NCBI GenBank assembly: GCA_949130485.1
Contig: OX422192.1
Span: forward strand, 6,549,085-6,613,084
DNA length: 64,000 bases
Direction of reading: 5' to 3'
Source of the DNA: Agelas oroides
Lineage: Eukaryota; Porifera; Demospongiae; Agelasida; Agelasidae
Part shown: in pieces, positions 4,254-52,799 of the stretch
Numbering within the stretch: position 1 is the first letter of the stretch
Layout: each line of letters opens with the position of its first letter
Made by a program: the position numbers and the translations under genes
Notes under the pieces: generated by a model
The model's database searches: none
The model's input: the letters and a program-made list of their open reading frames with translations, nothing else
What the model was told of the DNA's origin: nothing

Positions 4254-5684
4254 TCACGCTTTCATTATGCTTGCGCAGATGGATGCCTGGATGGTGTTGT
4301 TGAAAAGATCAAAGAAATCTGTACTGATGATGTTTGCTTTCAGTGTCCAGTCAGAACACCCATAGAACCAATTGTCTATTGTAGGGCATAGATCTTCAGC
4401 ATTTGACCATGGAGTTCTGTTCCAAGAAGGTGTCATGAACACACATGTGCTCCACATGTTAGTTTTGGGTGGTGGTTTGGTGAAGTCCTTTGCAAGGTCA
4501 GACTTGAGCTTGTCCTTGCTGTCCGCATCAGAGTACCAGTGTTGATCCACTCCAGGCCACATGTAGCTAGTGTCTATAGTTTTTGAATTCCATGCTACAA
4601 CTATGCGTCGCTGTCCTGATGTCTTCCAAATCTCAATGAGAGTCTTCCCTTGTCCCTGACTTACAGGCAAGTAGTAGCCATTCAGTAAGCTTTTGACTTG
4701 TCCCTTCAGCCGGTCATAGTCAAAGCTTTGATCACCTATTTGGTTGAACCGGTGGAAATCTAATATAACGATTTCCTTGTCAGTTGCACTGATAAAATCT
4801 TTGACCTCTTGAAGAGCTTGGCTCAAAGAATACTTAGTACGCCAGTTGTCATGCGAAATGATGTAATCTCCTGGACTGTTTTGTCCTATACGCAGATCTA
4901 GGACACGGATTCCTCGATTCAGCTGATCAAGCAAACTTAAATTCTGTGTTTGTATCCAAACCCTTCCAATAACAGAAACAGGCTCATAAGTTCCTGAGTC
5001 ATGGGTACCCGGTAGGGTCATCTCAGTCAGCGTGAGTTTTCCAAGTACGTCACTGTAGTACTTCATCCATTGCGGTGCCAGCGGGGTAGTTGATGGTGAA
5101 TAGATTGATGCCATCTTCTGCTTCATTGCAGCTACAGCTTCACCAGAAATGTTTGCCGCGGGAATGGCTGTCAAAGAGGCTAAAACATCTCTTGCTTGAT
5201 CTTCCAAAGCATTTCTATTGTGATCTGTCATAACAGCAGGCTTTGTAGCAGTTTTTAATTCAGGTAGTTCAGCTGGCAGAGAAGGTAGCGTTGTCTTCTT
5301 CTCTTTGATCAGCATGCAGAGGCTGCCATCATGAATCCATCCCAGCTTCCCAATGGTGCTATTTGGTGAAGGTGGTGGAAACACAGTGAACTGGCTGGTG
5401 TTAGTGCTTTTCCAATTCACCTGAAGAAAGCGTCCTACATCCTGGAGCCAACGAACCTGCAGCTGAAAAGAGGTGTCTGTAGTTTCCACTTGAAAATTTG
5501 CTTCCCCAGCATCATCTGTATGAGTGTGGAATATGTTTTCATCAAATTCGATGTAGAAACGCTTTTTGGAGTTGGCATTAATGTCACCGAATTTCCAGGA
5601 ATTCATCTGATAACTATGTTCGCCAGTAAGTTTCAATGTCTTGTTAGTGGCATTAACAATCCACAGGTAGCCTCCTTGGCCCAT
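4254..5684 (-). CDS. PI-PLC X-domain-containing protein
   Basis: A 476-residue single-exon protein. Residues about 210-370 carry the hallmarks of the phosphatidylinositol-specific phospholipase C X domain of the bacterial/PLCXD type: THDSGT (His228-Asp229), RVLDLRIG (Arg265), SHDNW (His278) and VILDFHRF. The two histidines correspond to the general base and general acid of this family, so the active site looks intact. There is no Y, C2, EF-hand or PH domain, so it is not a eukaryotic signalling PLC of the delta type. Residues 1-130 (GYLWIVNATNKTLKL..., aromatic and Asn/Thr-rich) look like a separate beta-rich domain I do not recognise, joined by a Pro/Ala/Lys linker. No signal peptide or membrane segment is seen; the start is the first ATG of the frame. 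Likely cleaves a phosphoinositide or similar phosphodiester. It is intronless, unlike its neighbours, which could reflect retroposition. Confidence 0.85.
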   Translation of the reverse strand: MGQGGYLWIVNATNKTLKLTGEHSYQMNSWKFGDINANSKKRFYIEFDENIFHTHTDDAGEANFQVETTDTSFQLQVRWLQDVGRFLQVNWKSTNTSQFTVFPPPSPNSTIGKLGWIHDGSLCMLIKEKKTTLPSLPAELPELKTATKPAVMTDHNRNALEDQARDVLASLTAIPAANISGEAVAAMKQKMASIYSPSTTPLAPQWMKYYSDVLGKLTLTEMTLPGTHDSGTYEPVSVIGRVWIQTQNLSLLDQLNRGIRVLDLRIGQNSPGDYIISHDNWRTKYSLSQALQEVKDFISATDKEIVILDFHRFNQIGDQSFDYDRLKGQVKSLLNGYYLPVSQGQGKTLIEIWKTSGQRRIVVAWNSKTIDTSYMWPGVDQHWYSDADSKDKLKSDLAKDFTKPPPKTNMWSTCVFMTPSWNRTPWSNAEDLCPTIDNWFYGCSDWTLKANIISTDFFDLFNNTIQASICASIMKA

Positions 5685-5699
5685 GACTAGCTACTACTT

Positions 5700-8430: not shown

Positions 8431-11400
8431 ATGACTTCACGTCAAAAGTTGAAAACAGGTACCACGTACGTTATTTTGTAGCTAGCTATTGCTATGGCTT
8501 CAATATCTACATTTCGCCTTCCAGGCAGCAGTGGTTCTGTCAGTGAAAGGGTCCTTCAAACGTGCCACTTCAAGTTGCGAAGTGAGCTGAATGTCCCGAT
8601 TCTCCTACCATACCTCAACAAATACCATCTCTTAACAACCGATTTCCATGAGGAATTGACACTGCAAGCAACTCATGCAGCAAAGGTGGACAAATTGGTG
8701 GCAGAACTACATAGGAATGGGGCAGATTTTCTTGAGCGTTTCATCCAGTGTCTCCGAGAGTCTGTGGAAGATGAACTAGGAACCTCCCATGGACAAATCG
8801 CAGATGCTCTTGAAGAAGAATTGAAGCTTCAACTCACTCGTGGTAAATTAGCCGTTGATAGCCTTGTGCCTGGCACACCAAATACCAGGCTTAGTTGACG
8901 GATGATCCTATTATTGATGTAAAGGAATTTCCTACACTTGCATGTTTTGACAATATTGACCCCAGGAGGTTCCAGCCATCGATACTGAGAGGACAGTAGT
9001 TAGGTTCAGACCAGAAATTCTCCTAGGGTGCTGCACATCATACCAGCTCCTTGCTCTATGCACCCAAACTTCCCTATACCCACAATGGTTGTGTTCAATA
9101 CTGTGAAAAAGTCCCAATCCAGCCTACCAAACAGTCCTTTATGACAGACCTTATTTTAATGTCTCAAGGTCTAGGTGCAGGTGGTCCCACACATGCAGAA
9201 GAGGTAAGACATGGCGATGTGGTAGCAACAACTAGTATACACTAAATGACATTCCAAGCGAAAGAATCAAACTAAACAGAGTGCTCTATGCACAAAATCA
9301 CAATGGCTACCTAGGCTTCTTGACAACACTGAATCCATCTGGTTAAAATCACCAAGCATTGAACTGGTAAGTTGCAAATTCAGAAGATAAACCAAACGTC
9401 TTGAAACACTTGCAACAAATGTGACTATCAGCCTGCTATCTTCGATAGAAAAACCTGCAACTATATGCACAGCTAACAGTTGAAATGCACTGTTTGTCTT
9501 GAGGTGACCTTCTATGGTTGTGTATAGGAAGTGTTAGTTGGATGGATTGGGAAATAGAGAATCTATGACATAAATGATATCACAGGTAGATATGAAACAA
9601 GGATGTTAAATTATGCTGATAAAATTGGCCTACACAAACTAACTACTTGGTGATGTCATTCACATCACTACTATTTTTATAATCCGCTGCAGGCCGTGAG
9701 TACAGCAAAGGGATTACTTTGGTAAGACTTTGTGAAAATGCATCACCAAGTACACCACTGCTTGTAGGTACCGGCCAACCAGGCAAAGAAGATGAAGGTA
9801 CACAGGAGTATTGTTTGTTTTCTCTTCTCACAATGAATGAATGGACTTGTTTCATTACAAGATACAATGGACGTTTGTTTATCATCGTGGTACGAGTCTG
9901 AGCTCAGACCCACATCACAATGATAAACAAACCTCCTTTTTAAATTCTCTAAGTAGCTGGTTGCTAGTGACTTAGCTACTTAGAGGATTTTAGATTCTGT
10001 GTACTTATTCCCAGGCCACCCCCCAATATTGCTTCATGGCTGTGAGATAAAATCTGCGAGTGGCCTGGGAACAAGTTAAGAGGCCAGACTAGATGACGAG
10101 ACATGCAGACAGTGCGGTTACAGTTTTTCCGGCCAGGTGCCACTGTTGCTGTTGAAAGGAAACAAGCAATGCATTAATATTAACAACCTCATTCCCTATT
10201 TCATGATCATTGCAACATCCATTAAGCCTGTGTGGACTTGTGTGCCACTAGTAGTTATTAGTACTTGATGCAGTCTGCAAAGCTAGGTTTGGAAATGGCT
10301 GGGGAACAGTGTTACTGTCTAGCACTGTCCTACTTGGGTGAAGTCACATGAATGCTGGTATTGACCTACTACTGTCATGCAGGGTCAGCAAAGGGATTTT
10401 CCACTATCAAAATTCATTAGTTGACACAGCCACAATCCATACCTATGGACTACCACATCCTCTTACTATTGTGCAAGCTGGTCATGTGATACTACTCATG
10501 GGGAACTGGAGTGGTCTAAATAAGGGCTTATTATTTCACAGCATGCAATTCTGGATCTCATTCCAAGAACTATCTAGTAACATAGTGCCTACAAAAATCA
10601 GGTAGAAGTGCCTCTTAAGGACACATCCCACATCAAAAGGACATGCCCCTTTTTGATTCCATTAGCCGCCATGTGAGAATGTGAAGAAGTACCATCTTGT
10701 TCATGTGAACAGCATATACATACCTCATAGATCATCTGCTCATCATCCAAGTTATTTCATGACTGTCATTCTCGTCTTTCCTCCTCTTGTGTCGATCTCC
10801 AGTTCTCCATGCATCTCCATGACATCATGAAAGTTTTTTGGATATTGCTGAGTTTGAAATGTGCCTATCTGCAATTCATAGTCATACTACTTGTAACATA
10901 TGTTGTATTAGAAATGTCCAGTAACATTAGCTTCAGAAAATACTACTTAGGAATGCCCAGTAACATAGGTATTAGGTACCTGGTAATGTAGTACTGGCCC
11001 ATAACATAGGTACTTGGTAATTGTACTGCTTATGAAAATCCCACAACCAAATGGGTATCTCTTATTCAAGCAGATGGTTCATTATTAATGTTTTGTCAGT
11101 CTGAATCCTTCAACTAAATTAATGGGGCCATGCACCGATAAAAGATGCAATCCACCGATAAAAGATGCAATCCAGAAAAGAGACAAACACGGATGTAAGG
11201 GTGGATCCACGGGAGCTAGAGGGCTCATCCTCGTGAATTCTCTCCAATAGGATGGCCTATCTAGACAGTTCTAGCCGACAAAATAACAACAGCATCCCCC
11301 TGCAATATTAATTTATGGTATACCTCTTGATATGGTGGATTCCTACAAATACCTTGGGCTACTCATCTCCTCTGACCTTACATGGTCACATCATATTGAC

Positions 11401-12972
11401 TCAATATGTAGCAAAGCTAGAAAACTTTTAGGCTTACTCTACCGGAGATTCTCCCATGACACCGAGCCGCATGCCCTTCTGCAACTATATCTGTCACTGG
11501 TAAGGCCCCATCTTGAGTATGGGAGTCAGGTTTGGGATCCACATCTTCAAAAAGACATAAACTAACTTGAGAGGGTGCAAAAATTTGGATTGAGAATATG
11601 TGCTAAGCAATGGGACTTGAGCTACAATGAGCTTCTGTCAAACTTTGAAGTACCCACATTAAATGATCGTAGGGTGTATCCCAAACTTGCTACCATGTAT
11701 AAAACTGTACATGACCTCCTTGTTTTCCCTCCTGTTTTTGTACGTCATAGTACTAGGGCATATGTAAATAGTAATAGTTTTATTCAACCATATGCGCAAT
11801 ACCAACAGTTTCTTGTACTCATTTGTTCCACATTCAATTTCACTTTGGAACTCATTACCTAATAGTATTACTAATGCACATTCATTCACTTCCTTTAAGT
11901 CACAGTTAGATACTCATCTTTATTATAATAGTTAAATACTTGTAATATGGGTGCATCTTTTATTAGCTTACTGCTGCTGTTGTACCCTTTGCATATTGCA
12001 TAAATTTATTACAGAAAATAAAAAAAAACAAAATAACGACAGTAATTCATCAGTGATGTTGTTCAAACTATCACTGCAGGGAGGAACCCCACAAAGAAGA
12101 TGCACTATTGCAACAGACGGTGGTGCTGCTGCTACACAGTGGTCCTTGTGATCACAGCTTTGCTAGCCCTTGCAATCATCATTCTCTCCCAAGAGCCTCA
12201 TGTCAGCCCTTCAGTACGCCCCTACTATGTATTTCACAACAGTACTGCAGAGTTGCTTTTTGACTACATGCCTTTCCTTGATCGTATTGCACTAGCTATG
12301 GACAAGAATTGTGGTGCCAAACTCTACCAGATACAAGACCAGGATTGTCGTTCACTGCAAACACTGAACACAAGTTATGTTGATCCTAATGACAAAGTCG
12401 ACTTTATTTACATGCTGCCTCAATCAGTAATCCATTTCACTGTGAACTCCGACACAAGTGGTCAAATATGGATCCTTTCTGACTATGATTCTGCTAGCAC
12501 ATTTGGCGTTAAACCACCAGACTGCTTCCATCCTCCCCCAGGAGCATACTGCTTTCAGGCTGCAGAACACCCTGGAAATTATCTGCATACTATTATTCAG
12601 CCTGCTAATTACTTCATACGCTTCTATCCTACAAACACTGCTCGGGATGTTAAATGGTACTTCAACCGAACCATTTTTGATATTAAAGCAATTGATAAGC
12701 AACACAATGGTGTACCCCTGACGCAAGTTCCCACTACCTTTTTCTTTCCCTTTCCGTACAAGACAAGTTGCATCTTGCTGAATGTTCCTGAACAGTCACC
12801 GTGTTACAGTGGTAAATTACTAGCCACCAATGTTGTAAGACAAGATGACTATCTCATCTTTCCAGCCATACTTCTTTTCACTGGTGTTATAATACTGATT
12901 GTACTAGCAAGTGTGCATGTATGCTGTCAATGCAGAACATCTTCTTATGAAAAACTTAGATCCTATTATTAA
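8431..12972 (+). CDS. CARD / two-pass membrane protein with six-Cys ectodomain, copy 1
   Basis: Four exons are proposed: 8431-8458, 8525-8842, 9693-9797 and 12080-12972. All junctions are phase 1, borders are GT/AG, and the sum is 1344 bases, giving 447 residues. Residues about 12-110 form a CARD (VLQTCHFKLRSELNVPILLP..., AAKVDKLVAEL, FLERFIQCL). Residues 116-150 form a linker ending SPSTPLLVGTG. Next come a basic/Cys patch (CNRRWCCCY), TM1 (about 169-186), an ectodomain of about 220 residues with six cysteines shared with copy 2 and sites NST, NTS and NRT, TM2 (about 409-431) and a 16-residue tail. CARDs recruit other death-fold proteins, so the N-terminus should be cytosolic and the middle extracellular. 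The ectodomain matches nothing I recognise. No Death exon was found here. The alternative is two genes, CARD plus linker and TM plus ectodomain; the uniform phase and copy 2's missing internal ATG argue against that. Confidence 0.75.
10880..11180. repeat. Short degenerate tandem repeats in copy 1 intron
   Basis: Units containing CCAGTAACATAGGTA and TTAGGTACCTGGTAATGTA recur three times between 10910 and 11030. At 11131-11174 the words CACCGATAAAAGATGCAATC are duplicated in tandem. The remaining intron sequence from 9800 to 10880 shows only one hairpin (10008-10077, TTCCCAGGCC against GGCCTGGGAA) and nothing coding. Confidence 0.6.
11325..12035 (+). mobile_element. 5'-truncated non-LTR retrotransposon (LINE) 3' end
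   Basis: The translation starting near 11326 reads VDSYKYLGLLISSDLTWSHH, then ARKLLGLLYRRF, then SLVRPHLEYGSQVWDPH. This is the typical thumb/C-terminal part of LINE reverse transcriptases of the jockey/CR1-like groups. A stop codon at about 11562 and a frameshift near 11820 break the frame. A short LWNSLPNSI-type C-terminus follows in the shifted frame, ending at about 11935. An A-rich end lies at 12015-12035. It is a dead fragment in the intron just upstream of the membrane-domain exon of copy 1. Confidence 0.85.
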
Positions 12973-13370: not shown

Positions 13371-15202
13371 GTTACATGACGCGTGTATATGCGTATACCA
13401 TTCTATTGTGCATGAATCGTGAACCTCCATGGCTACCTGACACAATAATTATGAGAACAGCCAGCAGTAAGTAATATTATTTCAAAAACTAGTTATAATT
13501 ATGCGTTAAGCTGACAGAAACTAATAGACAAGATGACTGCACAGCTGTTGCTGATATTGTTTTAGAAAGTACTATCGCTTTTTCCATATGTCTACTCTTC
13601 TACTATACTCAGTGACTCCAAAGCTCTTTTATTATTATAAACAGCTAGTAACCAGGATGCCTGAAGGTGGCAGCTAGCTAGGACTGATAATATACAGAAT
13701 GGTATCATGATAAATGCAGAATGATGTATAATTATATTCCCTTGAATAGGGCAAGTACTGTTACCAAGTGCATGGTGAGATGGACAAGTCAGGGGGTGAA
13801 GATATCCCAGACAAAGGGGTTGTGGAGCACCTCAGAGGTGTATTCAAGGATAAGGTGAAGTTGTGATGTACAGAACAGGGGACATTAAGATAGGGAGGTT
13901 CTGGATCATTCAGAACACTTGAATGGTTCATATAAAAAGTGTTTTGGGATTGTTTTGGAGTGGCATGGCTGCATTGAACCTATTGTCCACATGGAAGTCC
14001 CCTGCCTTATCTTATGCATAATACTGTCACAGTAGTAGAGATATTGGATGTTGATCTTATATGGTAAGTCCAAGATCCATTGTTCCAGTACAATAGCAAA
14101 AGATATTATAGTATAGTCAAAAGTTTTAGTTTCATTATGTATTGTACTGTACTAGCTAAGCCACCACATTGTTTTTAAAAGCAGTGTGAATCTTTTGCAC
14201 CTACATGTTCACTTTAGCAGGACATATTACCATATTTATTTGAACGCTATACATGTTATACGGCTGGAATAGCCAAATATCAGTGAATTAACCTACAAAT
14301 ATTACAGTTACATATGTACAGCCATAGAGCAATATCAGGCCCAGTTCTGAGAACTGCATCTTTCAGGTAGCTGTTCTGCTGCTATAGGAAGTTAAGTTTC
14401 CATAGCAAGATAGAAAAGAGGACAGACATGCATACGAGAAAAAGAATCAAAGCCACAAATTTTCACCCAAACTTTATAATTATTTAGTGATAAATCTGTG
14501 CCCTTTGCAAAATACATGCACATGCACTGATGCAATATACATTGTGTTAAATTCAGTGCAACCCATTGCTCACTTACAAGCGATAATGCAATTTCAAAAC
14601 TTTGTAGGGAAACAGCATTTAGCAAAGCATTCACTACTGCAGTACTTTCATAGTACTATTGTCTTGCAATTTGATTGGAAATCTATCGGAGGCCAGGGTG
14701 GCAGTATTTTGTCCTTCTACTTTAGTGCCAATCCACTTGGTATACTGTAACCAAGATGTAGGGGGTCAGTTGATGTATATCATGCACTACTAGAATCACC
14801 TGTGCACAACGTTATACAGCAAGCATTTGAACTCATGTGCAGTTATCAGCCATGCTTTTAAGTGTTCCAACTATATATAATTTTTTTTTTTTTTTTTAAT
14901 TCACTGTAAAAAGGAAATTGTCATTTCAACAAGCCATTAAGCTATCTGAGTTTCAGGTAAGTAAACATATTATATGCATGGACAGTTAATTCTGTGAACA
15001 AATTGGTTAAGAATCGAAAATACATTACAACAATCACCTCTTCCTCGGAGCCTAACATTTACTCATTTGCATCACAAGCAAGTAGTCAAGAATGCTTACT
15101 CATCTGCATCACAAATGCCAGACTACTTGCTTGTGAAAATCACTATACCTCCTAATGTACATTGAGCTTGATTTTTACACTCAGCAACCAGAGTCTGTAG
15201 TA
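13371..15202. other. Intergenic or 5' intron, no feature seen
   Basis: AT-rich sequence with a T-run at about 14880 and no conserved-looking frames, elements or inverted repeats that I can identify. If 13180-13370 is a 5' exon, this would be the first intron of the RRM gene. Confidence 0.3.
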
Positions 15203-18200
15203 ATGGAGGGAACCAAGAGGAAGAGGAGTGACAATGAGGGCAGTACAACAGCCAAAAAATCTCGTCCGTCATCCACTCCTATCTTAGAGGTACATAACAG
15301 TATAATGAATGCATATGTACATCAGTTTGATATAGCTACTATGAGTTCTCTCACATTTGCATGGGTGAGTATTAATTGCTTGGATTTATTCTTTTCTGTC
15401 TTGGAAAGTGATCACGACTGCATAGCTGTAATGTCTTTCTGCAGGTGCAGGATCAGAGTTATGAGCTGATCATACATGGTCTGGAAAGTTCTACAAGCAC
15501 TGCAGATATGAAGGGGTATTTTGAACAGTATGGAGATGTGTCTGTAGCTGAGGTGAGTCTGTTAGTGTGTGTATGCATGTGTTTGCATGTGAGCATAAGC
15601 ATGTATTGCCTCGCTCCCACGCTAAGGTATGTACATGTGCTTGGCTGTAGAAAGCCCTTGGCCCGTGCTGGGTGAGCCGATTGTCTCAAATTTGCATGAA
15701 TGCACGAAACAAACAAACACACAAACAAACAAACAAACAAACTGTTGTGTGTTCATTGAGTCAAGCTAGTTTGTTAAATGAGCACAAAGTGCATCTAGCA
15801 CATAAAAATTTCGGCACTGCTTTGTGTACATTGGATGCTCATCACTTCCTCTTGCCGGGCAATGACTTTAACTACATTAATTTGCATCTTGTGTTATTAT
15901 GTGGACTTTTTTTCGCATCTTGGGGTTTAAAAAGGTAGGTATTGTCATTGATGTGATGATAGGATAGTTCGCCTGCATGCTGTTCACATCACACACTTCC
16001 AGCCCAGACAGCATGCACCGTTGGTATGCTCTGGAAAAACTCACGTTGTGTCAACAGCGGCTTTTGTTCCTACCACCGCCTCTCTCTAGCCTCATTCCCA
16101 GACTCTTGTGAGCATATGTTTATGTACATATCCTACATTCTGCCAGCTGAGAACCTCCTATACTGCAAGATAAAGGAAAAGATCATCTCTATCCCCTAGA
16201 AAGCGAATCTGTACTGAGTGTGTGACATTATATTGTCACAACACTGTGACTTGACCACACAAATAGCTTTATTCAGGTGAACATGTAAGCATAATACTGC
16301 ATGAATGGAATTATGTGTACTAAACGACTCAGTATAAGTGTGACAGGACAGAAAATAGTATTGTTTACCACTACTGCATGTGTTGTGTGGGAGGAGTGAG
16401 AGGATGGATCGAGAAAAGCCCACATTCTGTCACGCAAAAGAGCAGGCACAGAACAAGACTGGAAATATGTCTATATATTGAGGATTTGCAAGTGCAGTCA
16501 TTGTCCGTGTGTATGCTACTTTCTCTTCCCCAATTGAGTCTTGGGATGATCCAGCACTAAAAACGGATCTGCAGCTAAAATGTATATACCATTGACACAA
16601 ATTCTTTCCAACTGTATAAGGAAATGTTCTTTTGGACTTTTCACTTTTGCCCTGAACACGACTAGACCATATAGTTGCAATAGTTGTTTGTTTTGAGGCA
16701 ATGGAGGAGGAGGTGAAGCCGGGAATCGAAACCACGGCCCCTGGCTTGAGCTGCCAGTGCTCTGGCCACTGAGCTACAATCACTACTAAGCTACGACCAC
16801 CAGGCAACCACCAGCCCTCACAATCCTCTCCATATACTGTACAGGTGGTACTGAATGCTTCAGTCTCAACACCTGGTGCCACTCAGTATGTGCTATCAGA
16901 ATTTTGTTAGGGGTTGACCAGAAAATTTTCTCCATCATGAAAAATCCCATGCTGAGTGTTTCCTCAAAACAAGCAACCTGTCTTCATCTTCATCTTGAGG
17001 CAAGATCATATAGTTGCAATATCAACAAAAGTTGGTATCAGAGAACCAGCCCTGACAACCAGTTCTAAACCTTGAGACAGGCCGGGTTGTGCCTACTGAG
17101 AGCAGTACTACTCTACTGTCTATGCTACTAAGTGTACACAACATGCCGCATCAGCTATGTGGGTATGGTGAAGGCAGCCTTAAATAGTAGCTTCTCCTTT
17201 GGGTTCTGACACAGATTGAAAAACAGTGCTCAATGCTTTTCAAGTTCAGGCCTCACGGATTTACCACTTGTGCAAACAAAGTCAGTGACACCAGAGGTGG
17301 CCAATTATCGAGTAGAATTTTTACTGGTGTGACTAAAAATTAAGACATTCCAAAACATATCAAGAGCTGGAAAAACAAACAAACAAACAAACAAAAAAAA
17401 TCAGCACAAAATCAATTATTGGGGAACAGCATGCCCTAAGTAATTGTTGTGGAGCCTCCTTCACTAGTTAATAATTTGCTGCATTTACACACACATGCAT
17501 GTACACGGTCATAAACACACATACACCATGCATAGCCTCATTCCGCTTCCCCAGTTTTTACCTTCCGTTTGCGTTCACAATAATACACGGGAGCGAAGAC
17601 TGGTTTTAATTTTCCACTGATCTTCTGATTCGGTGTATTGTCATGAACGCAAACGGGAGGTAAAAACAGGGGAGGCCTGGGAATGAGGCTACACCATGCA
17701 TATACACATACCACACACACGACAACACAAACACATCACACACACACACCATCACTCACACCACGCAAACACAACACTCACATATCACACACACATACAC
17801 ATAGGTGAAGGATATCGATACAGGAACATTGCAAGGCTTTGTCAGAATTCACTACTTTGATGATGACATTCAGATGAAGGTGCAGGGTATGAAACATGTC
17901 ATCAAGGAGCACGAGGTGGAAGTCGAGTTTCTACAGGTGTGTGGAATACTCAACATCATTGTATGGTTTTACACTTTACATATTCTAGTATCCCGCTCAC
18001 GTACACATGTATGTATGTAGTCTTGTCCATCTGTAGGTCTGAAAGTCAGGAAATTACACAAACAGGCTGTTTAATTCCGTGAAGACTAGCTAGCCAGGTC
18101 AATTGGGCAACTACCTTAATCTCCCAAAAATAGGCCCACACTCGTAAGTAGACCATTCCTCCTACTTGAATGAAGTTATTGGTAAGCTTACTTTTCTCTT

Positions 18201-23438: not shown

Positions 23439-26400
23439 ATGTCAGTGACACCGTCACACCAAGTCCAAGAACTGCAGACAGGTAACGTTACCAGTAGATC
23501 TAGCTAGCTATACAGTTTAATATCCATAGAAAGTGTTTCATCTTTCAGCCAACCACGGTTCTGTCAGTGTAAGGGTCCTTCAAAAATGCCACTTCAAGTT
23601 GAGAAAGGAACTGAATGTCCCGATTCTCCTACCATATTTAAACAAATATCGCCTGATAACAGCTGACTTCCATGAAGAATTGACACTGCAAGCAACTCAT
23701 GCAGCAAAGGTGGACAAATTGGTGGCAGAACTACCTAGGAGTAGGGCAGATTTTCTTGAGCGTTTCATCCAGTGTCTCCGAGAGTCTGCGGAAGAAGAGC
23801 CTGGAACCTCACATCACCAAATTGCAGAAGCTATTGAAGAAGAATTCAAGCTTCAAATCGCTCATGGTAAATCACTATAGATGATGAGATTTTATGCAAA
23901 ACTTACAGTTTATTTTCAAGTTTTACATGTTCAGTGCAATTCCAGTGCACAGATACATCTGCATATCCCTGGATATGACTTATAAATGTAATACAATGAA
24001 TAGGCTGGTGGTAATACACTTAACACGCAGAGTTAATTACATGTACTGTGAATTTGCGGGGTAAATCCATTGCTGCTCAAGGTTGTGAGAGAACCAGTGG
24101 AGCTACATTTCATACTTGGTAGTTAAAAAGAGGCTATTTTTGTTGGAATAAAATACCTTTGAAATCATGTGGGTACACTGTTATTCATGTCGTTACTATC
24201 TTTATGCAATCCACTGCAGGCTTTGCGTGCAGCACACAGATTAACCTGGCAGGTATTCAGTATGAAGAAGCATCACCAAATACGCCACTGCTTGTTGGTA
24301 CTGGCCAACCAGACCAAGTGAATAAAGGTAAACGGGTCTATGGTTTGTCTAGGAATTGGCTTCTTCATGCAAGTATAGAGTAGCAAGCTGATCTGCCAGC
24401 CTATAAATTCATGAAGGCTTTATAGTAAAATCTCTTTGCCCATAAATAGGTTAGGGATTCTTTGTGCTTGTGTAAGCAGTTGTTAGCAGGGTCTCCTTAG
24501 AAGGACTTCAGGTTTGATAGGATATTGACATTCATTAAGCCTGACACACCATCCTCACTGAGCCAACATGGTGTGTACTGCAGGGCCGTAGCCATCAAAT
24601 TTGGAGTGGTCAGGTTAGTGGTGCGTGCGTAAGCACGCAAGAGCTAGGGGGGTCTGGGGGCATGGCCCCCCAGAAAATTTTGGGAATTTAGAGTCTATGA
24701 GGTTGCTTCTGAGACCATTTTTGGGCCAAAACGATGCTTATCGGAGGCCAGACAACAGAGTTTTACATGCATGAACATCTACCCTTTCTGCCTGTTGCAC
24801 CATATAGCACTGCATGGTTTTGGCTTTCCGATCGTTCGCTAATCTCACAAGCCACACCCTTCGCAGATCGTTCGGTTGGAAGAACAGAAAATTGTTGGAA
24901 GACTCGGTCTTTCTCACTGTTTGCAGCCATCTCGTATTATGTTGCAACATGTCACCACGCTGTGTGCATGCCATGGGCATTTGCCGAGCATTGGCCCTAT
25001 TTGGCGACACCAAGCAAGCCACGGTGAGGGGAAAATGGTCCGGTTGAAACCGGACTAACCGGACCGGTGGCTACGGCCCTGTACTGCCAGACTGCTCACT
25101 TCATATCCAGGTCTTTCCACCCCAGTGTTTGTTGCATGCAGTTCTAATACTGTGAAGTAAAACTTATCACATGCAGCATGTCAGATGTATGTACCTGGAC
25201 ATCATGTGAATATGTCTTGAGATGTGGTACATGCACTAGAAGCCATAACTGAACACCAAAGATGTCAGATGTCTAGATACATCACAAGTTTATCGGGCCT
25301 TCCTCAGCAACCCTGGAGTAAGAAGGCCTGTACTACATACACTGCATGCTACCATTAATGCTGATTTGGTTCTCTTTAAAGTTGTTGTCCATCTGGGTGG
25401 TCGGTCACCCTGCACAAATATCACATTCACAATGCATTTGTTACTGTGCTCTCCTACACACACGAATGTGGTCATTCCATTTATAGTCTGCAAGCCAGCA
25501 ATGGGAAATAATGAACTGCATGGGAATAGTTTTACTGTGACAGACACTCCATCTTAGGTGACTACATGTGACTGGCATCTACTATTCCATCCGATCCAAG
25601 TTTCATCAAGTATGGCTTTTCAAAATTTTTGTTAACTAAACTAACTAAAATTGCCCAGAGCATCTTGCCTCAAGCTGGAAATAAAGGAATTTAGATGTTA
25701 TGAGGTGAAAATAGAGGAAAGTGAAATCGAACCCAGGACACCTGGCTTGAGCCGCCAGTGCTCTGCCACTGAGTACAGCAACCGGACAACCACCAGCCCT
25801 CACAATCCTCTATATGTACTGCACAGGTGGTACTGAATGCCTCAGTCGCACACCCGGGAGCTAGCCACTCAGTATGTGCCGTCAGAACTTCGTTAGGGGT
25901 CGACAGGAAATTCTCTCCATCTCTCATAACATCTAAATTCCTTTCTTTCCAGCTTGAGGCAAGATGCTCTGAGCATATAGAGAGAGAAAACCACTCAGCA
26001 TGGGTTTTTTCCTGATGGAGAGAATTTTCCAAAACTATTTTTGAAATCTAAACACTGACTATAACTAAACTATAAGTGTAAACCCTATACTAAAACAACA
26101 CTAAAGGTGACCTTCCTTTCTATGGAAAGCCTATTGTACATTAGTAAGATGAAATAATAAGTACACTAGCATGTAAAAGGTGTTTGGTTAAAGTTATGAT
26201 TAACTAAAACAACACTACTGAAGTTATTAGGGCAAACCCAGCAAGCACAATATTAAGTAAGTATAACCACACTACTATCACATGCATGGTGCATAAATAA
26301 TTTATTCTAATTGTCTGCAGAATCTCTGTATTATTGAACTTCCAGTTGATTTTGCTCCTGGTACTGTGCATGGGGTTACAGTCAAAGGGGCGGGCTTCAT

Positions 26401-27308
26401 AAGTATAATGTTGTTCATTCATCACTTCAGGACCGAAACCCACAAAGAAGATACACTGCTGCAGCAGACGGTGGTGCTGTTACTACACAACAGTCCTTGT
26501 GATCATAGCTTTGCTAGCTCTTGCGCTCATCATTCTTTCTCAAGAGCCACATGTCAGCTCTTCAGTACATCCTCTCTATGTACGCTGGAACAGCACAGTG
26601 GGATTGCTGTTTGACTACAAGCCTTGGCTTGATCGTATTGCACTAGCTATGGACAAGAATTGTGGTGCCAAGCTCTACCAGATACAAGACCAGGATTGTC
26701 GTTCACTACCAACACTGAACACGAGCTATGTTGATCCTTCAGATCATTCAGACTTCATTTACATGCTGCCGGGATCAGTAATCCATTTTACTGTAAACCC
26801 TGATACACAAGGGGAAGTTTGGGTGTTTTCTGACTATGATACTGCTAACGAGTTTGTTAAGGATCAATCACGTTTTGACTGTCATTCTCCCCCATCTGGA
26901 GCATACTGTTTTGAGGCTGAAGATCACCCAGGAAAATACCCATACTATATTCAACAACCTGCTTATTACTTTATATATCCCCGCCTTCTTAATGGAGCCA
27001 TTGTTGATTGGTATTTCCACCGAACAATTTATGACAGAGATGCAATAATGAAATATACCAACATCGGAATCCTGACGAAAGTTCCCACAACCATCTACTT
27101 TCCTTTTCCGTACAAGAAGAGCTGTATCTTGGTGGACATTCCTGCAGGGATGTGTTACAGTGGTAAAATCCTGGCCATCAATGCTGTAAGACAAGATGAG
27201 TATCTCATCTTCCTCGCCATACCTCTTGTCATCTGTGTTATTTTAGTTGTGGGTGTGTATGTGTATTGCCACTTAAGAAAGAACCTTCCGTCTTCCTTTG
27301 TGAAGTAA
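23439..27308 (+). CDS. CARD / two-pass membrane protein with six-Cys ectodomain, copy 2
   Basis: Exons 23439-23481, 23549-23866, 24220-24327 and 26431-27308. All junctions are phase 1; the sum is 1347 bases, giving 448 residues. An in-frame ATG at 23424 could add five residues. The first exon is MSVTPSHQVQELQT. The CARD spans about 17-115 (VLQKCHFKLRKELNVP..., FLERFIQCLRES). The linker ends SPNTPLLVGTGQ. The codon that is ATG in copy 1 (MHYC) is ATA here, and the frame still begins at a phase-1 acceptor; this favours splicing from the linker exon rather than a separate start. TM1, a six-Cys ectodomain (KNCGAKLYQIQDQDC..., FDC, AYC, KSC, GMC) and TM2 follow; the tail is short (HLRKNLPSSFVK). 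No Death exon is seen between 23867 and 24219. A transposon (24581-25081) and a tRNA-like element lie in the last intron. The frame is fully open, so this is the best candidate for an active copy. Confidence 0.75.
24581..25081. mobile_element. 501-bp element with CAGGGCCGTAGCC ends, 5-bp duplication
   Basis: The left end CAGGGCCGTAGCCA and right end TGGCTACGGCCCTG (with one extra base) are inverted. TACTG flanks both sides (24576-24580, 25082-25086). The interior has open frames but no transposase motif. A lone end of the same type (CAGGGCCGTAGCC) occurs at about 7470. Confidence 0.8.
25655..25980. mobile_element. Foldback element carrying a SINE-like tRNA head
   Basis: The arms contain CAGAGCATCTTGCCTCAAGC and AATTTAGATGTTATGA, inverted over about 48 bases with one or two mismatches. 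Inside, on the minus strand, are a box A-like TACTCAGTGGCAGAG and box B-like GGGTTCGATTTC (25723-25775), followed by the segment shared with the SINE at 16.7 kb. Either a SINE landed in a foldback element or the family is a composite. Confidence 0.65.
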
Positions 27309-30260
27309 TGCTTATATCTTGTGCAATATGATGATTGAGCGTCCAGTTGCTGTCATAAGGATCACTGTGCAGTTTGTTGTTACAGTAACTGTTGTGTTTG
27401 TGAGATAAAATTTGTGTGGTCTTTATCATGTACATATATGGTGTGACAATTCTTATGTATAGACGTCTATACACATACTTTGCATAGGTTTATACACGCA
27501 GGATACCTGAGATGGTCCCATTTTATGTATAAATTTATGTAGTAAGGTTTGTTTTTTGAAACTCTACTGGGTCCAAAGACAAGAAGGCTATCTTATCTTT
27601 GTAGCCATACCTCTTGTCATCTGTGTTATACACTGATCAGTATATTTGTGGATGTACATATACACTTCCATTTTAGAGAATTACCTCAGAGAAACTCAAT
27701 TAGGTTCTATTATTTTGTACATTGAGTATGCCCAGCTGTATTATGCATGTGGCTAGGGCTGTTCTCTGTTGTGCTTGTGTGATTATGTGTTGTTAACTAG
27801 CAATAAGACCCGTTCTTACTTCTATTTTGCAGTGACGTAGCTAAGTAGATCTACAGCTATGCAATGCATGTGATTCGAGATCAAAGGTTGGTGCCTCCCT
27901 TCTTGCTTCCACATCACCGTGTCATGACTCGTGATCAGCGCCGATAATTCCATTGCGTATCTGCACTAACGGCCTCCAGTTGCTAGGGCACGTGCCCCAG
28001 TGTGCCCCAGCCTGGCTATGCCACTGCTCGGGCTTTGTGTGTGACGTTTGAAAGGTCATCATTTACGAATAGTCAGCTCGCTGTTCGTTCCGTTTCAGCA
28101 GTTTCAGCAACTGTGACAGTATGTCTGCGACCGGCCGGACTTCACATCACCAACAGCAGACAGGTACCATTAATGTTAATTTGTAACTAGCTATAGCAGC
28201 AAAATAACATCTATTTCACCTTTTAGACGGTGGCTCTGTCGGGGAAAGGGTCCTTCGAAAGTGCCACGTCAGATTGAGGAGAGAGCTGAATGTCCCAATG
28301 CTCCTACCGTATCTCAACCAATATCGCCTGATAACAGCTGATTTGTACGAGGAATTGACGCTGCAAGCAACTCATGCAACAAAGGTCAACAATTGGTTGC
28401 AGAACTACCTAGGAGTGGGGCAGATTTTCTTGAGCGTTTCATCCAGTGTCTGGGAGAGTCTGCAGAAGAAGAGCCAGGAACCTTCCATGGACAAATCGCA
28501 GATGCCCTTGAAAAATCTAAGCTTCTGGAGCTCGAGACTAGTGGTAAATCGGAAAAGAATTAGCTTATCCAAATTGATGAGTAGATAGGAAATGCCTCAT
28601 CAAGAGTGCCATACATTAGCTAGCTAAGAACATAGACATTTCTATTGCAACAACTTCCTGTAAACCACCGAAGCTGTGAGAAATTTCTTTGCATGACAAC
28701 ACAAAGTAGTCACGGGTACATACTCATTAACCTTGACAGAGCTATACAACTATATGCTTCTGGGAGAAGCTAATCAGCTACAAACCTTGTAATCAATTAT
28801 TCTACACTTGCATTTTCAGCCACTCTGAGTGTGCAGCTGCTTTCTTGTGAACTGCAGTCAGTGTCCAACTGGTACCAACTGGGGATCAAGTTGGGCCTGG
28901 AGCCTTACCAGCTGAAACAGATTGAAGAGAAGACTACAGATATTGAACGCCGCAAAATTGAGATGTTGGATTTATGGCTGCGAAGAACCCCTGGGGCCTC
29001 CTGGAGTCACATTGTCACTGCTCTCAGAGAAATGGAGGAAATAACAACTGCAGAGAGGATACAGCAGACGTATGGAGAAACAGGTATAGCCAACTGGAAT
29101 GTAGATAAGTTACATACCACTTTGAAACACAGTAGTTTGGCAGAGCATGTAGGATTGAGTTAAAGGGTCTACCATTAGATTTATTTGCATTACAGTTTGA
29201 AGCCCTGCAAAAACTAAAATTGATGCTAGATCATGTGCACATGTACAGACAGGGATAAACAATTGGTTCTGTCATCTGACAGTCACTCAACAAAATTTGG
29301 CAATTTAGAATGTGTGAAGTCTGCATATATTAGCATATGTGACGTGAACATTCGCTGTTATGGGTAGAAACACTTTTGAATTTTAATTCAATTAAAACAG
29401 TGTAGCAATGTGTTCAAATGTGAACAAAGACTCGTGAAGACAAGTGCCTCAGTGCTGTCCTCCTAAAGAGGTAGCTACGTAAATAGTGGCTCTAGCTCTT
29501 CTAACTAGTGTTTGTAAGAGTCTCTTCCATCGTGATCATATGCCTCAAGATGCCTTCAGATCAAGCCACGTTGAGTGACAAAGAGCAACAAGGAACAGTT
29601 CACTTCAATAACTGGCAATAACACCATGACCTGCTATTGGCCAAGTTTTCTGTATGCATGTTTTTCATGGTCAAGCTGTAAATACAACAACTGCACTGTT
29701 TTCAATGTCCTGAAGGGCATTCCATATGTAGTATCTGGTCATTCATGTCATTGTTCGTATAACACTTAATGCAATCCACTGCAGGCTTAGCGTGCAACAC
29801 TGAGACGACTGAGGTGGATTATTCTGAAGATGCAACAGCAATTACACCACTGCTTGTTGGTACTGAACGACCAGATCAAACAGGCGATGTGGAAGAAGGT
29901 ACACACCAATATTGTTTGTCTCTTGCACCCTACCAACAAGCCAGCTTATTACTCACATGTGGTTTGATGGCCTCTTTCCATATTTGGAAGTGAGGGTAAA
30001 CTGGGATGTTTTGAGGCTGCAGTCTTGTAACCTAATGTGGTTACGTCCTTAAAAGGAAGGTTCAACAGAATAGTGAGGCCTGCCACTTGCACTCCATGCT
30101 CTGAGCTAACCTTGTTCCCAGGCCTTTGCCTTGCTTTACAGTATGCTAAAATTGAGGGGGAACGCCTGAGAGATTTTGTCACCTGCATGGCAGTGTGACA
30201 CAGTGATAGGTAGACAGACGGGTGCCCAATGAAGAATTTTGAGGTCCTTTAGTGATATCT

Positions 30261-30750
30261 TAATCGCCACGGAATTCCGTGGCGACTGTGTTCGTACGTA
30301 TACGTACGTATACTGGTGACATCATAAACTCGCCTCGTTGATATGCCAGTTGGTGTTCTGTTCGAGGGAGTTTCATATCGCACAGTTCTAGGCCTTCTGG
30401 TAGCTAGGTACCTCGAGATAAAGCTCAAGAAAGAACAGATTGCCTCCAATGAGTGCGTTTACTGAGGAAGCGTACATTTATGCGGTTATCCACCATTTCC
30501 GGTAAGTCGATTCCTACCACTGCCTACCAGACTTTTCTCTTTGTATCCGACAGTATAAAACTAGGCAAAGCATGTAGCAGCGATGAGGTATTTTTTATGA
30601 CGGTTTATGCTATTCATGTGATAACCGGATCGTCATATTAGTACACGCCCCTAATTCTACCATGTGGTCTTGCCTATAATTACGCGCATGCGCAAACAGT
30701 ATGTACCAGGCGCTCTTTCTCCTCGCCCTCCGTGCCTAGGAACGAGGCTA
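30261..30750. mobile_element. 490-bp insertion defined by a paralogous empty site
   Basis: The right duplication unit reads straight through GTGATATCTGACTTCAG (about 53245). Here 490 bases lie between ATCT and a second ATCT. The insert has a perfect 20-base palindrome (CGCCACGGAATTCCGTGGCG), a CGTACGTATACGTACG tract and a right end AACGAGGCTA that matches the hairpin family. Its class is unclear. Confidence 0.7.
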
Positions 30751-32081
30751 ATCTGACTTCAGACCATACATTTGAAAGACAGTGTCAGTACAGCTCTTTG
30801 TGTTCAGTAGACTTGAGGCTGACTAACGTATCAACTGAGAAGCTATTGAATTACGTGCTGGTTTTTTGCACTAAGACTTACCACAATGCTTAGCTATTGT
30901 CACTTCAATCTTTTGTAAGGTGTGAGGCCTGCAAAGTTTGTGAGTTACAATGTTCGGACACCACCCTCCGTCTATCTACCCTCTGTCCACCCGACCTCAT
31001 CACACGTGCCTAAATTTTCCAAGCATTCCCTCTGTGTTTGCATGCTGCTAAAGTGGAGCCAGGGAAGGCCTGGGAACGAGGCAGCTCTGAGTCAACATGC
31101 TGTGTAGTATATACCACATTGCACACTCCCTCTAGGACCTACTTTTTGCCTAATATACCCCCTCACCTTATTTTGAGGGCAAGTTTCTGCTATGAATCTC
31201 ATTATGTACTTTCTTTAAATGAATATCTGGTGAGAACACTGTCCTTATAGTGTGACTGTGTTGTGTATGAAGGATACCTTATTACAGGCATAAGTTACCT
31301 CTACTCTTACCAGTACTTAAGCTTCAGTAGTGCGAAGGGTCTACCAAACCATGGCTGTGAATCCCCAACATGAGGCAAAGCCAATTAACATGCCAACATT
31401 GTGCAAAACACTTGAGTCACTTCTGCTGTCATCAGTGTGACTTTGTGGTTTACTGACAATTAACAATCCAAACATAGTAGTATGAGCAGGTGGTCCACAG
31501 AGATTGTGAATTTGATACACTGGGAAGCCCACATCAGCTGACAGTGTAGTATCATGTAACTTCACCTATAACTAGGAAAAAGTACCTGTCAGAAGGTGGC
31601 AGTAACATTACTTCATGCTATCAGTCTACGTAAGAATATTATGTTGTATTGATGAGAGGATCAAAGCTATCTGCTGGAAGGTAGAGAAAACATCTAATAA
31701 CCTACTCTGTAATGGCCGACGTTTGCAGTATCTAGTCGCTGGTATATGTGTCCCCAAATAGTATTCTTACCACTGCAGCTAGTGACTTACTCCTGTGTTC
31801 CTCAAACAACACTAGCTATCATCGAGTTTGCCATACCAGCAGGTTCACATAGCTACTGTGTATTCAGAAATGAAGTGCATCAGCAAACTGGAACCGATAC
31901 CAAGTGTCTAAATCAGTATGCTAGCTCTTTGTGACTCACTCAGCTACGGGGACTGCCTCTCCTGTAGTATCTTGATTAATGTGAGCTCACTCTCTCCATC
32001 TTGATACATGCCCAGGTTTTTTGTACAGTACGCATGTTATTTATTCTCATTCCAGAAGGTAGTATCAACTTAAGATTCATT

Positions 32082-32121
32082 GTACAAGAGCAAGCCATAT
32101 CAATGTGACTTGCTCTTGTAC
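32082..32121. repeat. Short perfect stem-loop
   Basis: GTACAAGAGCAAG and CTTGCTCTTGTAC pair perfectly over 13 bases with a 14-base loop, in the intron before the membrane exon of copy 3. It may be a tiny hairpin element; nothing supports an RNA gene. Confidence 0.6.
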
Positions 32122-33149
32122 TATGTAGAATGCTTTGTATCCACACAACTAGATTTTCATTTCAGATTTTGGGGAGGAAAAGCAGATCTTGAACCTTCGC
32201 CTAGTGGTAAAGTAGTGGGCTGTTGACATGTATCAGCAATGTTGTTCATTCATCACTGCAGTGCGGAGACCCACGAACAGGACATGCTGCTGCAGCAGAA
32301 GATGGCGGTGGTGGTGCTGCTGCTACACAGTGGTCCTTGTGATCATGGCTTTGCTGGCCCTTCCTCTCATCATTCTTTCTCAAGAGCCACACGTCAACCC
32401 TTCAGTACACCCCTACTATGTATTTCGCAACAGTACTACAGTTGCTTTTTGACTACATGCCTTTCCTTGATCGTATTGCACTAGCAATGGACAAGCATAA
32501 CTTTGAGGCCAGGCTCTACCAGATACAAGATCAGGATTGTCGTTCACTGCCAACACTGAACACAAGCTATGTGGATCCTAATGACCCAGCAGACAATATT
32601 TACATGCTACCTGGATCAGTGATCCATTTTACTGTGAACTCTGGCACAAGTGGTCAAATATGGGTTCTTTCTGACTATGATTCTGCTAACACATTTGGCG
32701 TTAAACCACCAGATTGCTTTCACCCCCAACCTGGAGCCTACTGCTTTCAGGCTGCAGAACACCCCGGAAACTATCTGCATTCTATCAAACAGCCTGCTAA
32801 TTACTTCATACGCTTCTATCCTATAAACACTGCTCGGGACGTTAAATGGTACTTCAACCGAACCATTTTTGATATTGAAGCAATTGATCAGCATTACAAT
32901 GGTGTACCCCTGACAAACGTTCCCACTCTCTTCTACTTTCCCTTTCCATACAAGACAAGTTGCATCTTGCTGGACGTTCCTGCACAGTCACCGTATTACA
33001 GTGGTAAAGTGCTAGCCACCAATGTTGTCCGACAAAATGGGTATCTCATCTTTCCAGCCATATTTCTTTTCACTGGTGTTATAATACTGATTGTACTAGC
33101 AAGTGTGCATGTATGCTGTCATTGCAGAAGATCATCATCTTCTTAATTT

Positions 33150-50747: not shown

Positions 50748-52080
50748 TACACCTGAGTATCAGCTGTGATGAAGATAGTTTGTCAACTGTATGATTGCCA
50801 ATACAAGTACGCAGTCACATAGGAATGGACTACCCATCTGATGCCACACTCTCCACATAATATAAACATCTCTATATATTGTGTGGAAACATTTTATGGT
50901 TCACCAAATTTAGGCGTGATGATATGTACTAGGTCAGTATATGATGGATACATGTGCTTGTTTGGAGACTCTGACATCACTTACCTTACTCATACATAAT
51001 GTTGACTGAGCTATACAACAACAATATGCTACTGGGAGAAGCTAAACAGCTACAAAACTTGAAGTCAACTATTCTACATTTACATTTTTTCAGCCACTCT
51101 GAGTGTGCAGCTCCTTTCTTGCGAACTGCATTCAGTGTCCAACAGGCACCAACTGGGGATCAAGTTGGGCCTAAAGCTGTATCAGCTTAGTCAGATTGAA
51201 GAGAAGACTACAGATATTGAACGCTGCAAAATTGAGATGTTGGATTTATGGCTGCGAAGAACCCCTGGGGCCTCCTGGAGCCACATTGTCACTGCTCTCA
51301 GAGATATAGAGGAAGTATTAACTGCAGAGAGGATACAACAGAAATATGGAGAAACAGGTATAGCTAGCTAGTTGCAATGCATGTAAGCACTTTGAAATCA
51401 AAGTAGTTTCAGTAATGAACTGGTAGCTAGATCGAATAGCAGACCTTTCAGTAACTCGATCCTACATTGATGTTAGCTCATGTGCACATGTACAGACAGG
51501 GTTGAACAATTGGTTCTGGCATCTGACAGCCACTCAACAAAATTGCTAAATTTGGTAATCTAGAATGTCCTAAGTCAGCACATGTGTACCTGAACATTTC
51601 TTGTTATAGCTACAAACACTTTGAAAAACAATGTAGCAATGTGTTCATATGTGAAGCAAAGTGTACAAAGACTTGTGAAAGACAAGTGCCTTGGTGCTGT
51701 CCTCCTAAGAGGTTTACGTAAGTCATGTCTCTGCATAAACATGACTCTAGCTCTTCTACCTTAGTGTAAATTCCTCTTCCTTTGTGATCAGATGCCTCAA
51801 AACACTTTCAGATCGAGCCATGTTGAGCTAGTGGCAAAGAGCAACAAGGAACAGTTCACTTCAATAACTGGCAATAACACCATGACCTGCTATTGGCCGA
51901 ATTTGCTGCATGCATGTTTGTCGTGGTCAAGCTGTGAATAAAACAACTGCACTGTTTTCAATGTCCTGAAGAAGTTACATAGTGTGTGGTCATTCTATCA
52001 TGTAGCACTTAATGCAATCTACTGCAGGATTAGTGTGCAACACTGAGACGACTGAGGCAGATTATTCTGAAAATGCATCA

Positions 52081-52799
52081 CAGGGCGGTAGGAAGCAAGA
52101 AAAAAGCTGTCCGGCCAAATTCCCATAAGGGATGAGAGATAGCATGCTTTGCACACCATAATCTAGGGCAAGCTCCCCCAGGAAAATTTTGAAAATTACT
52201 CCTTCTAAGACTGCTTCTGGTGGCTTCTAAGACTGCTTCTGGTGGCTTCTCAGACGCCAATTTCATTTAGGGAAATGCAAACCATTGTAGATGAAAGCAG
52301 AGACTTTCATATTGCCGGCGATCTTCGTCTTCCCCGTCTTGATGGCTGTCACGCACATATGGCAGAAGGCTAAGTCTGTAGTTGACTCATAGTGTAGCCA
52401 CTGCCACTTATTAAACCAAGATCCTTGAAAAGCGCAACTGACAACTTTGGACTTGCCGAACTGGCATCTTGGAAGATATCACGCTCATGTTGGTGGGGTA
52501 CTTCACCAACCTCATGAAGACTAGTCTCGCGTAGCCAGACTCTCGCCCTGCGAGAGTCTGGCTACGCGAGACTACGGGAAGACGACTAGACTCCGCCATT
52601 CACGATTCGACAGCGAGCACGTGTTCCGAGTTTTAACTTTGAACCTTGTATGGTTGTTCTAGCTCTTGTGCATGTGAGAGTCTAGCTTCACGAGACTAGC
52701 TTTCGTGAGTGGCGGCGTGCAAGATACAATTTTTTTTTTATGCTTACAAAAACTGGTACGGCCATGGCCATACCAGCCATAGTGGCTCCTACGGGCCTG
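52081..52799. mobile_element. 719-bp element with CAGGGC ends, splitting an exon
   Basis: CAGGGCGGTAGGA on the left and TCCTACGGGCCTG on the right. CATCA is repeated at both borders (52076-52080, 52800-52804); an 8-base reading, TGCATCAC, is also possible. The target is the linker exon of copy 4; copy 3 shows the uninterrupted exon. A 53-bp hairpin lies inside. Confidence 0.75.
52522..52574. mobile_element. 53-bp hairpin element, TAGTCTCG subfamily
   Basis: TAGTCTCGCGTAGCCAGACT pairs perfectly with its reverse complement across a short loop. The flanks CATGAAGAC and CGGGAAGAC agree at 7 of 9 bases. Similar tips occur at about 44230-44255, 45328-45360, 61250-61260 and 62600-62612. Confidence 0.75.

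Follow-up and report, generated by a model that had tools for sequence, protein, structure and literature searches.

The 64,000-nucleotide stretch of Agelas oroides contig OX422192.1 analyzed here (the window; C10:6549085-6613084 of a 259-Mb, 141-contig genome in which C1, C3, C5, C10-C13, C15, C17, C21 and C22 are contig labels) raises the question of whether successive exons for a CARD, a linker and a membrane-spanning ectodomain belong to single genes and, if so, what kind of protein these genes encode. The exon structure, the CARD, two hydrophobic segments, conserved cysteines and N-glycosylation sequons, and an old pairing of CARD and ectodomain exons were established from the genomic sequence. 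The best reading, and a probable one, is that of a receptor that crosses the membrane twice, with a cytosolic CARD that clusters under the control of the ectodomain; such a protein would be tied directly to the cell-death machinery.

Exon models of genes A (8431-12972) and B (23439-27308) were both intact, contained no internal stops and predicted proteins of 447 and 448 amino acids (aa), respectively, each with the order CARD, linker, transmembrane segment (TM), six-cysteine ectodomain and TM (Table 1). Exon lengths, stop included, summed to 1344 nucleotides (nt) for gene A (28+318+105+893) and 1347 nt for gene B (43+318+108+878), GT and AG were present at all six donors and all six acceptors, and all six junctions (three per gene) were in phase 1. 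Thus, the exon borders, phases and sums of an earlier first-pass annotation of the window held for both genes when recomputed. Between A and B, protein identity and dN/dS were 80% and 0.40 for the CARD exon (Fisher p 0.03), 68% and 0.33 for the ectodomain exon (p 4e-9) and 50% and approximately 1.0 for the linker exon (p 1.0), with synonymous sites taken as 24% in the Fisher tests. As judged from these substitutions, the ectodomain exon is under purifying selection. Both linkers contained TPLLVGTGQP despite a dN/dS near 1.0. Fragments of reverse transcriptase-like open reading frames (ORFs) were noted by eye at 11287-11862, within intron 3 of gene A between the linker and ectodomain exons.

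CARD (PF00619) was the best Pfam family for the heads of A and B, with scores of 21.2 and 20.9 bits that lie under the cut-off of 23.9. This cut-off was reached by six of seven full-length paralogue CARD exons (24.1-30.6 bits), including that of paralogue E, and was missed by F2 (23.1 bits) as well as by a 21-residue piece of J. Comparison of profile A3 with PDB gave seven matches, five named caspase-9 and two "Caspase", all with weak E-values (0.024-0.051). These results bear out the N-terminal CARD that was originally proposed.

The two-pass layout and the six-cysteine, sequon-bearing ectodomain of the first-pass annotation were likewise upheld. Two hydrophobic stretches were found in each of the proteins A and B (Kyte-Doolittle averages of 2.69-3.07 for the best 19-mers), and basic residues flanked each of them on the cytosolic side, as seen from hydropathy and by sight. 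Tails after TM2 were approximately 8-20 residues long and lacked a RING. Among 21 aligned proteins, five ectodomain cysteines were invariant and the sixth was present in 19, sequons at P0001 positions 47, 90 and 189 were present in 20, 15 and 15, respectively, and 39 positions of the ectodomain exon were invariant. No Pfam or PDB sequence match was obtained for the ectodomain. AlphaFold2 predicted for exon 4 of gene A (mean pLDDT 83.7) a beta-rich middle with a long helix at each end, a prediction of a beta-rich ectodomain fold that was itself confident. Of the domains that mark Toll-like receptors, neither LRR nor TIR matched when the window's CARD, Death and ectodomain ORFs were scanned with Pfam. 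The NACHT, NB-ARC or repeats of an NLR were likewise not found in the window ORFs scanned, and the Cys-rich repeats of the TNF receptor superfamily (TNFR) matched neither window ORFs nor the 21 relatives, for which 25 of 34 Pfam families were listed. Surface location, receptor function and glycosylation of the family proteins are putative.

The distribution of the family was examined in genome searches that were six-frame and ignored introns, so that every count is a minimum. A search with P0001, which is the ectodomain portion of gene A, gave at least 12 matches corresponding to 11 ectodomain loci (A to K, with gene C matched twice) on three contigs, and query P0028 recovered the same 11 loci. 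The CARD of gene A gave 23 matches, of which 13 were followed within 10 kb by an ectodomain exon of the same strand. These 13 fell to nine of the 11 loci (A, B, C, E, F, G, H, J and K), on two contigs and both strands; the other ten were on C12, C22, C17, C21, C5 and C3. Two CARD matches were obtained at each of C, F, G and H, those of gene C being pieces of one broken exon, and two tandem CARD exons preceded the TM-ectodomain-TM exon in F, G and H (L032, L033 and L034/L035). The CARD of E was 79-83% identical to those of A and B, the CARD of J was split by an intron and only the second half of the K CARD was identified; the ectodomains of J and K were approximately 29% identical to that of A. 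Loci G, H and K were on the minus strand, and thus the order and orientation of CARD and ectodomain had been kept through inversion. A CARD searched for upstream of locus I was not found. An upstream exon at this locus (L036:6890-7300) appeared death-fold-like by eye and matched nothing in Pfam or PDB, and the ectodomain of I was the most divergent. Protein searches for relatives found 21, 29 and 44 proteins of 198-390 aa, none of which carried a name or precomputed Pfam domain.

From the sequence evidence, the CARD, linker and TM-ectodomain-TM exons almost surely form one gene, as the first-pass annotation had it, because CARD and ectodomain were paired, their distances were correlated and ectodomain exons lacked an in-frame ATG before TM1. 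CARD and ectodomain distances gave r 0.95 for seven of the 11 loci (A, B, E, F, G, H and J, with the CARD nearest the ectodomain used where there were two), a value equalled or exceeded in 13 of 5040 permutations; C and D, which are broken, I, which is without CARD, and K, which resembles J and has an incomplete CARD, were left out. Since the tandem copies are related, this correlation indicates shared descent of both halves and not independent events. The alternative of two adjoining genes, one for a small CARD-only protein and one for a separate TM-ectodomain-TM protein, draws on the in-frame ATG that does precede TM1 in the ectodomain exons of A, E, G and J, on the 2.3-kb span of the last intron of A, on a one-gene reading made from genomic sequence rather than transcripts, and on four APD-like loci of the same genome (below), which are TM-ectodomain-TM proteins without a recognized death-fold exon. 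However, the ectodomain exons of B, F, H, I and K, five of the nine, contained no in-frame ATG between the preceding stop and TM1, which excludes an ATG start there, and the inspected CARD, linker and ectodomain exons had AG acceptors and phase 1 (computed for A and B, by eye for paralogues). With pairing also kept at nine of 11 loci, inverted loci among them, and with the correlated divergence of the two halves, two separate genes appear very improbable.

Four copies of the gene family, as opposed to the two noted earlier, were present within the window. Gene C (28121-33146) had a Death exon in addition, and the frame was broken in its CARD and ectodomain exons; gene D (51094-54483) was decayed, lacked CARD and TM1 and had a Death exon as its sole head. 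A search of A and B for a Death exon found none. In a genome-wide search with the Death query (150 of 673 candidates scored), the top two matches were C and D, and the next, on C1, was 57% identical. With phase 1 at either end, the 264-nt Death exon and the 318-nt CARD exons of A and B are of the symmetric type, which can be gained or lost by exon shuffling while the frame stays intact.

Possible kinship of the ectodomain was sought in the APD1-4 family (PF16040/PF16041), which takes its name from RING E3 ligases of plants. In plants, the APD1-4-type ectodomain is coupled to a ubiquitin-ligase RING. At E 10, neither family was listed for window ORFs or for 32 distinct family members, i.e., 21 for which 25 of 34 Pfam families were listed, three new and eight others. 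In the same genome, PF16041 matched with E 0.001 or better on C13 (E 5e-12) and C22 (E 5e-5), just above cut-off at C10:3714056 (26.6 bits, cut-off 25) and below it at C10:3633913 (20.5 bits); two weaker matches were left out of this APD-like set. Each of the four loci encoded, by sight, TM-ectodomain-TM in one open frame, and no convincing head exon was found in 7.7-8.2 kb upstream with family CARDs and one Death query (best E 0.012). The C13 protein (L044, C13:1007574) had no RING in its open frame and carried in its C-terminal tail PPPAY, which we take to be a possible docking site for a NEDD4-type ubiquitin ligase. Ectodomain-only hhalign of the family against the four loci gave E 0.0014 and a probability of 17.5% over 146 columns; none of 300 column shuffles scored as high, and one of 200 shuffles of ten-column blocks did. 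Against the C10 pair alone, one of which is below the APD cut-off, the result was E 1.3e-4 and 53.9% (0 of 400 shuffles), and against the two surest APD proteins alone (C13 and C22) the values were 14.1-16.2, within the null. Likeness to APD1-4 lies in a beta-rich ectodomain between two TMs, all encoded by a single open frame, and in a collinear profile alignment with loci of the same genome, whereas the window family has no RING, an N-terminal CARD or Death instead, and no listed similarity at Pfam level. These alignments suggest a remote, and likely, kinship of the ectodomain to the APD1-4 family.

The nearest CARDs outside the family were 37-43% identical to that of A, with two on C12 and three on C22. 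At four of these five sister loci (L039 and L041-L043, in C12:7346000-7374000 and C22:2390000-2417000), a further exon of approximately 970-1010 codons contained first a hydrophobic segment, noted by eye, then NB-ARC (E 4.1e-8 to 3.4e-10) and, weakly matched, TPR. The order resembles that of Apaf-1, with a membrane segment placed between CARD and NB-ARC; the stretch fetched for the fifth locus (L040) contained CARD alone. In this genome, therefore, membrane parts of at least two kinds follow CARD exons. NLRs with transmembrane domains have been reported for the sponges Dysidea avara and Amphimedon (PMC12909245); CARD exons related to that of A likewise precede a hydrophobic segment and NB-ARC here, although in such proteins a cytosolic NTPase sensor replaces the ectodomain and there is one membrane segment.

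The first-pass annotation could not match the architecture to a known one. This is borne out only in part: the TM-ectodomain-TM half may be divergently related to APD1-4, and a CARD before a membrane segment recurs with NB-ARC in the same genome. TNFR1, Fas, p75NTR and UNC5 are single-pass receptors with a C-terminal Death domain, and MAVS has an N-terminal CARD and is tail-anchored, without an ectodomain. In all of these, as in the present family, a membrane protein is coupled to a death-fold domain, and the CARD of MAVS is also N-terminal; the single pass and C-terminal Death domain of the former and the anchoring of the latter set them apart. A Dysidea avara gene induced by microbial cues (PMC6208332) likewise joins CARD to usually extracellular domains in a sponge, but these are Ig domains and the comparison is of domain content, not of domain order or membrane segment. 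An amphioxus transmembrane protein (PMC2575513) links an extracellular domain and the caspase pathway within one polypeptide, but through a TNFR ectodomain and a caspase domain, without a CARD head. Oyster proteins with the order Cys-rich ectodomain, TM, DED and TRADD-N (PMC8195603) have likewise expanded in a lineage-specific way in a marine invertebrate and are membrane proteins that carry death-fold parts, but with the ectodomain first and DED and TRADD-N behind a single TM. The family architecture was not described in the available parts of PMC12909245, PMC2575513, PMC6208332, PMC6118397, PMC8242945 or PMC8195603.

In the receptor that we consider probable, both protein ends would be cytosolic, with one or two CARDs (in gene C, a CARD followed by a Death domain), a flexible linker, TM1, a disulphide-bonded beta-rich ectodomain, TM2 and a short basic tail. 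The ectodomain, facing the cell surface or an organelle lumen, would sense a ligand or an adjacent membrane. Clustering of the ectodomain would gather the CARDs and so recruit CARD-bearing partners by homotypic binding. Candidate partners would be caspases, caspase adaptors or this genome's own CARD-TM-NB-ARC proteins, the CARDs of which are the closest relatives found outside the family. Caspases are possible effectors because 32 Peptidase_C14 matches were noted genome-wide. The ectodomain probably goes back to a TM-ectodomain-TM protein like those of APD1-4, which would have acquired symmetric phase-1 CARD exons through exon shuffling. More tentatively, and with somewhat less than an even chance in our estimate, these genes may represent a new animal death-fold receptor class in which exon shuffling rewired an APD1-4-type two-pass ectodomain to heads made of a CARD, tandem CARDs or a Death domain. 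A cue from outside the cell or from a lumen would then nucleate CARD assembly directly at the membrane, beside membrane-anchored CARD-NB-ARC partners.

The strongest rival, which we judge unlikely on balance, is an endomembrane adaptor with a luminal ectodomain (ER, Golgi or lysosome), the CARD of which would serve as a membrane-anchored platform as in MAVS. Hydropathy and basic flanks suit luminal as well as surface topology, and TPLL, common to the linkers of A, B and C and kept loosely in other paralogues, recalls leucine-based sorting signals, with the usual acidic residue missing; the six conserved cysteines and up to three sequons, however, fit both locations equally. Still less probable is a decoy or brake, in which the CARD would sequester CARD partners and the ectodomain would position it without sensing. 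Tandem expansion with decayed copies, as seen for C and D, also occurs in modulators, but a dN/dS of 0.33 and 39 invariant positions in 21 proteins exceed the apparent need of a spacer. There is only a slim chance that the two TMs are those of a ligand- or ion-gated channel (P2X/ASIC/PAC-like layout) to which a CARD was added.

Table 1. Exons and exon parts of genes A to D in the window, and contigs of the ectodomain loci
Feature	Position	Strand	Remarks
Gene A exon 1, start codon and short N-terminus	8431-8458	+	GT donor, phase 1
Gene A exon 2, CARD	8525-8842	+	318 nt, phase 1-1; Pfam CARD E 3e-4, 21.2 bits
Gene A exon 3, linker	9693-9797	+	TPLLVGT, common to B and C
Gene A exon 4, TM1-ectodomain-TM2	12080-12972	+	Starts with basic/Cys-rich juxtamembrane stretch, ends in short basic tail
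Gene A exon 4 parts	TM1 ~12130-12192; six-Cys ectodomain ~12193-12849; TM2 ~12850-12918	+	
Gene B exon 1	23439-23481	+	43 nt
Gene B exon 2, CARD	23549-23866	+	318 nt; Pfam CARD E 3.7e-4, 20.9 bits
Gene B exon 3, linker	24220-24327	+	108 nt
Gene B exon 4, TM1-ectodomain-TM2	26431-27308	+	878 nt; no in-frame ATG before TM1
Gene C exon 1	28121-28163	+	43 nt, length equal to gene B exon 1
Gene C CARD exon, frame-shifted	28227-28540	+	End is one of two candidate donors; Pfam CARD 16.5 bits, first part
Gene C Death exon, between CARD and linker	28820-29083	+	264 nt, phase 1-1; Pfam Death E 1e-11; borders by eye
Gene C linker exon, open	29785-29898	+	
Gene C TM-ectodomain-TM exon	32262-33146	+	Frame break near 32445
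Gene D Death exon	51094-51357	+	264 nt; Pfam Death E 8e-8; borders by eye
Gene D linker	52030-52868	+	~0.7 kb interruption
Gene D ectodomain remnant	53836-54483	+	TM1 missing, frame broken
Ectodomain loci A, B, C, D, E, F, G, H	C10		
Ectodomain locus I	C11		
Ectodomain loci J, K	C15		

Elsewhere in the window, a PI-PLC X domain (Pfam E 1e-7) was present in the ORF at 4257-5690 on the opposite strand, upstream of gene A, ORF pieces at 15137-15500 resembled by eye an RRM protein (YELIIHGLESSTSTADMKGYFEQYGDVSVAEV), and a short tandem repeat with most frames open on both strands occupied positions 1-720.

The best-known CARD proteins are cytosolic sensors or tail-anchored adaptors on organelles. 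If the receptor reading is true, the fusion of a CARD and a two-pass ectodomain would let a single polypeptide turn a cue from outside or from a lumen into CARD assembly, in what is probably an early-branching animal; the amphioxus TNFR-caspase protein achieves comparable coupling by other means (PMC2575513). An APD1-4 root, if true, would bring together animal death-fold signalling and an ectodomain that is named after ubiquitin ligases of plants. The presence of CARD-TM-NB-ARC genes in the same genome makes membrane-tethered CARD signalling directly testable in such animals.

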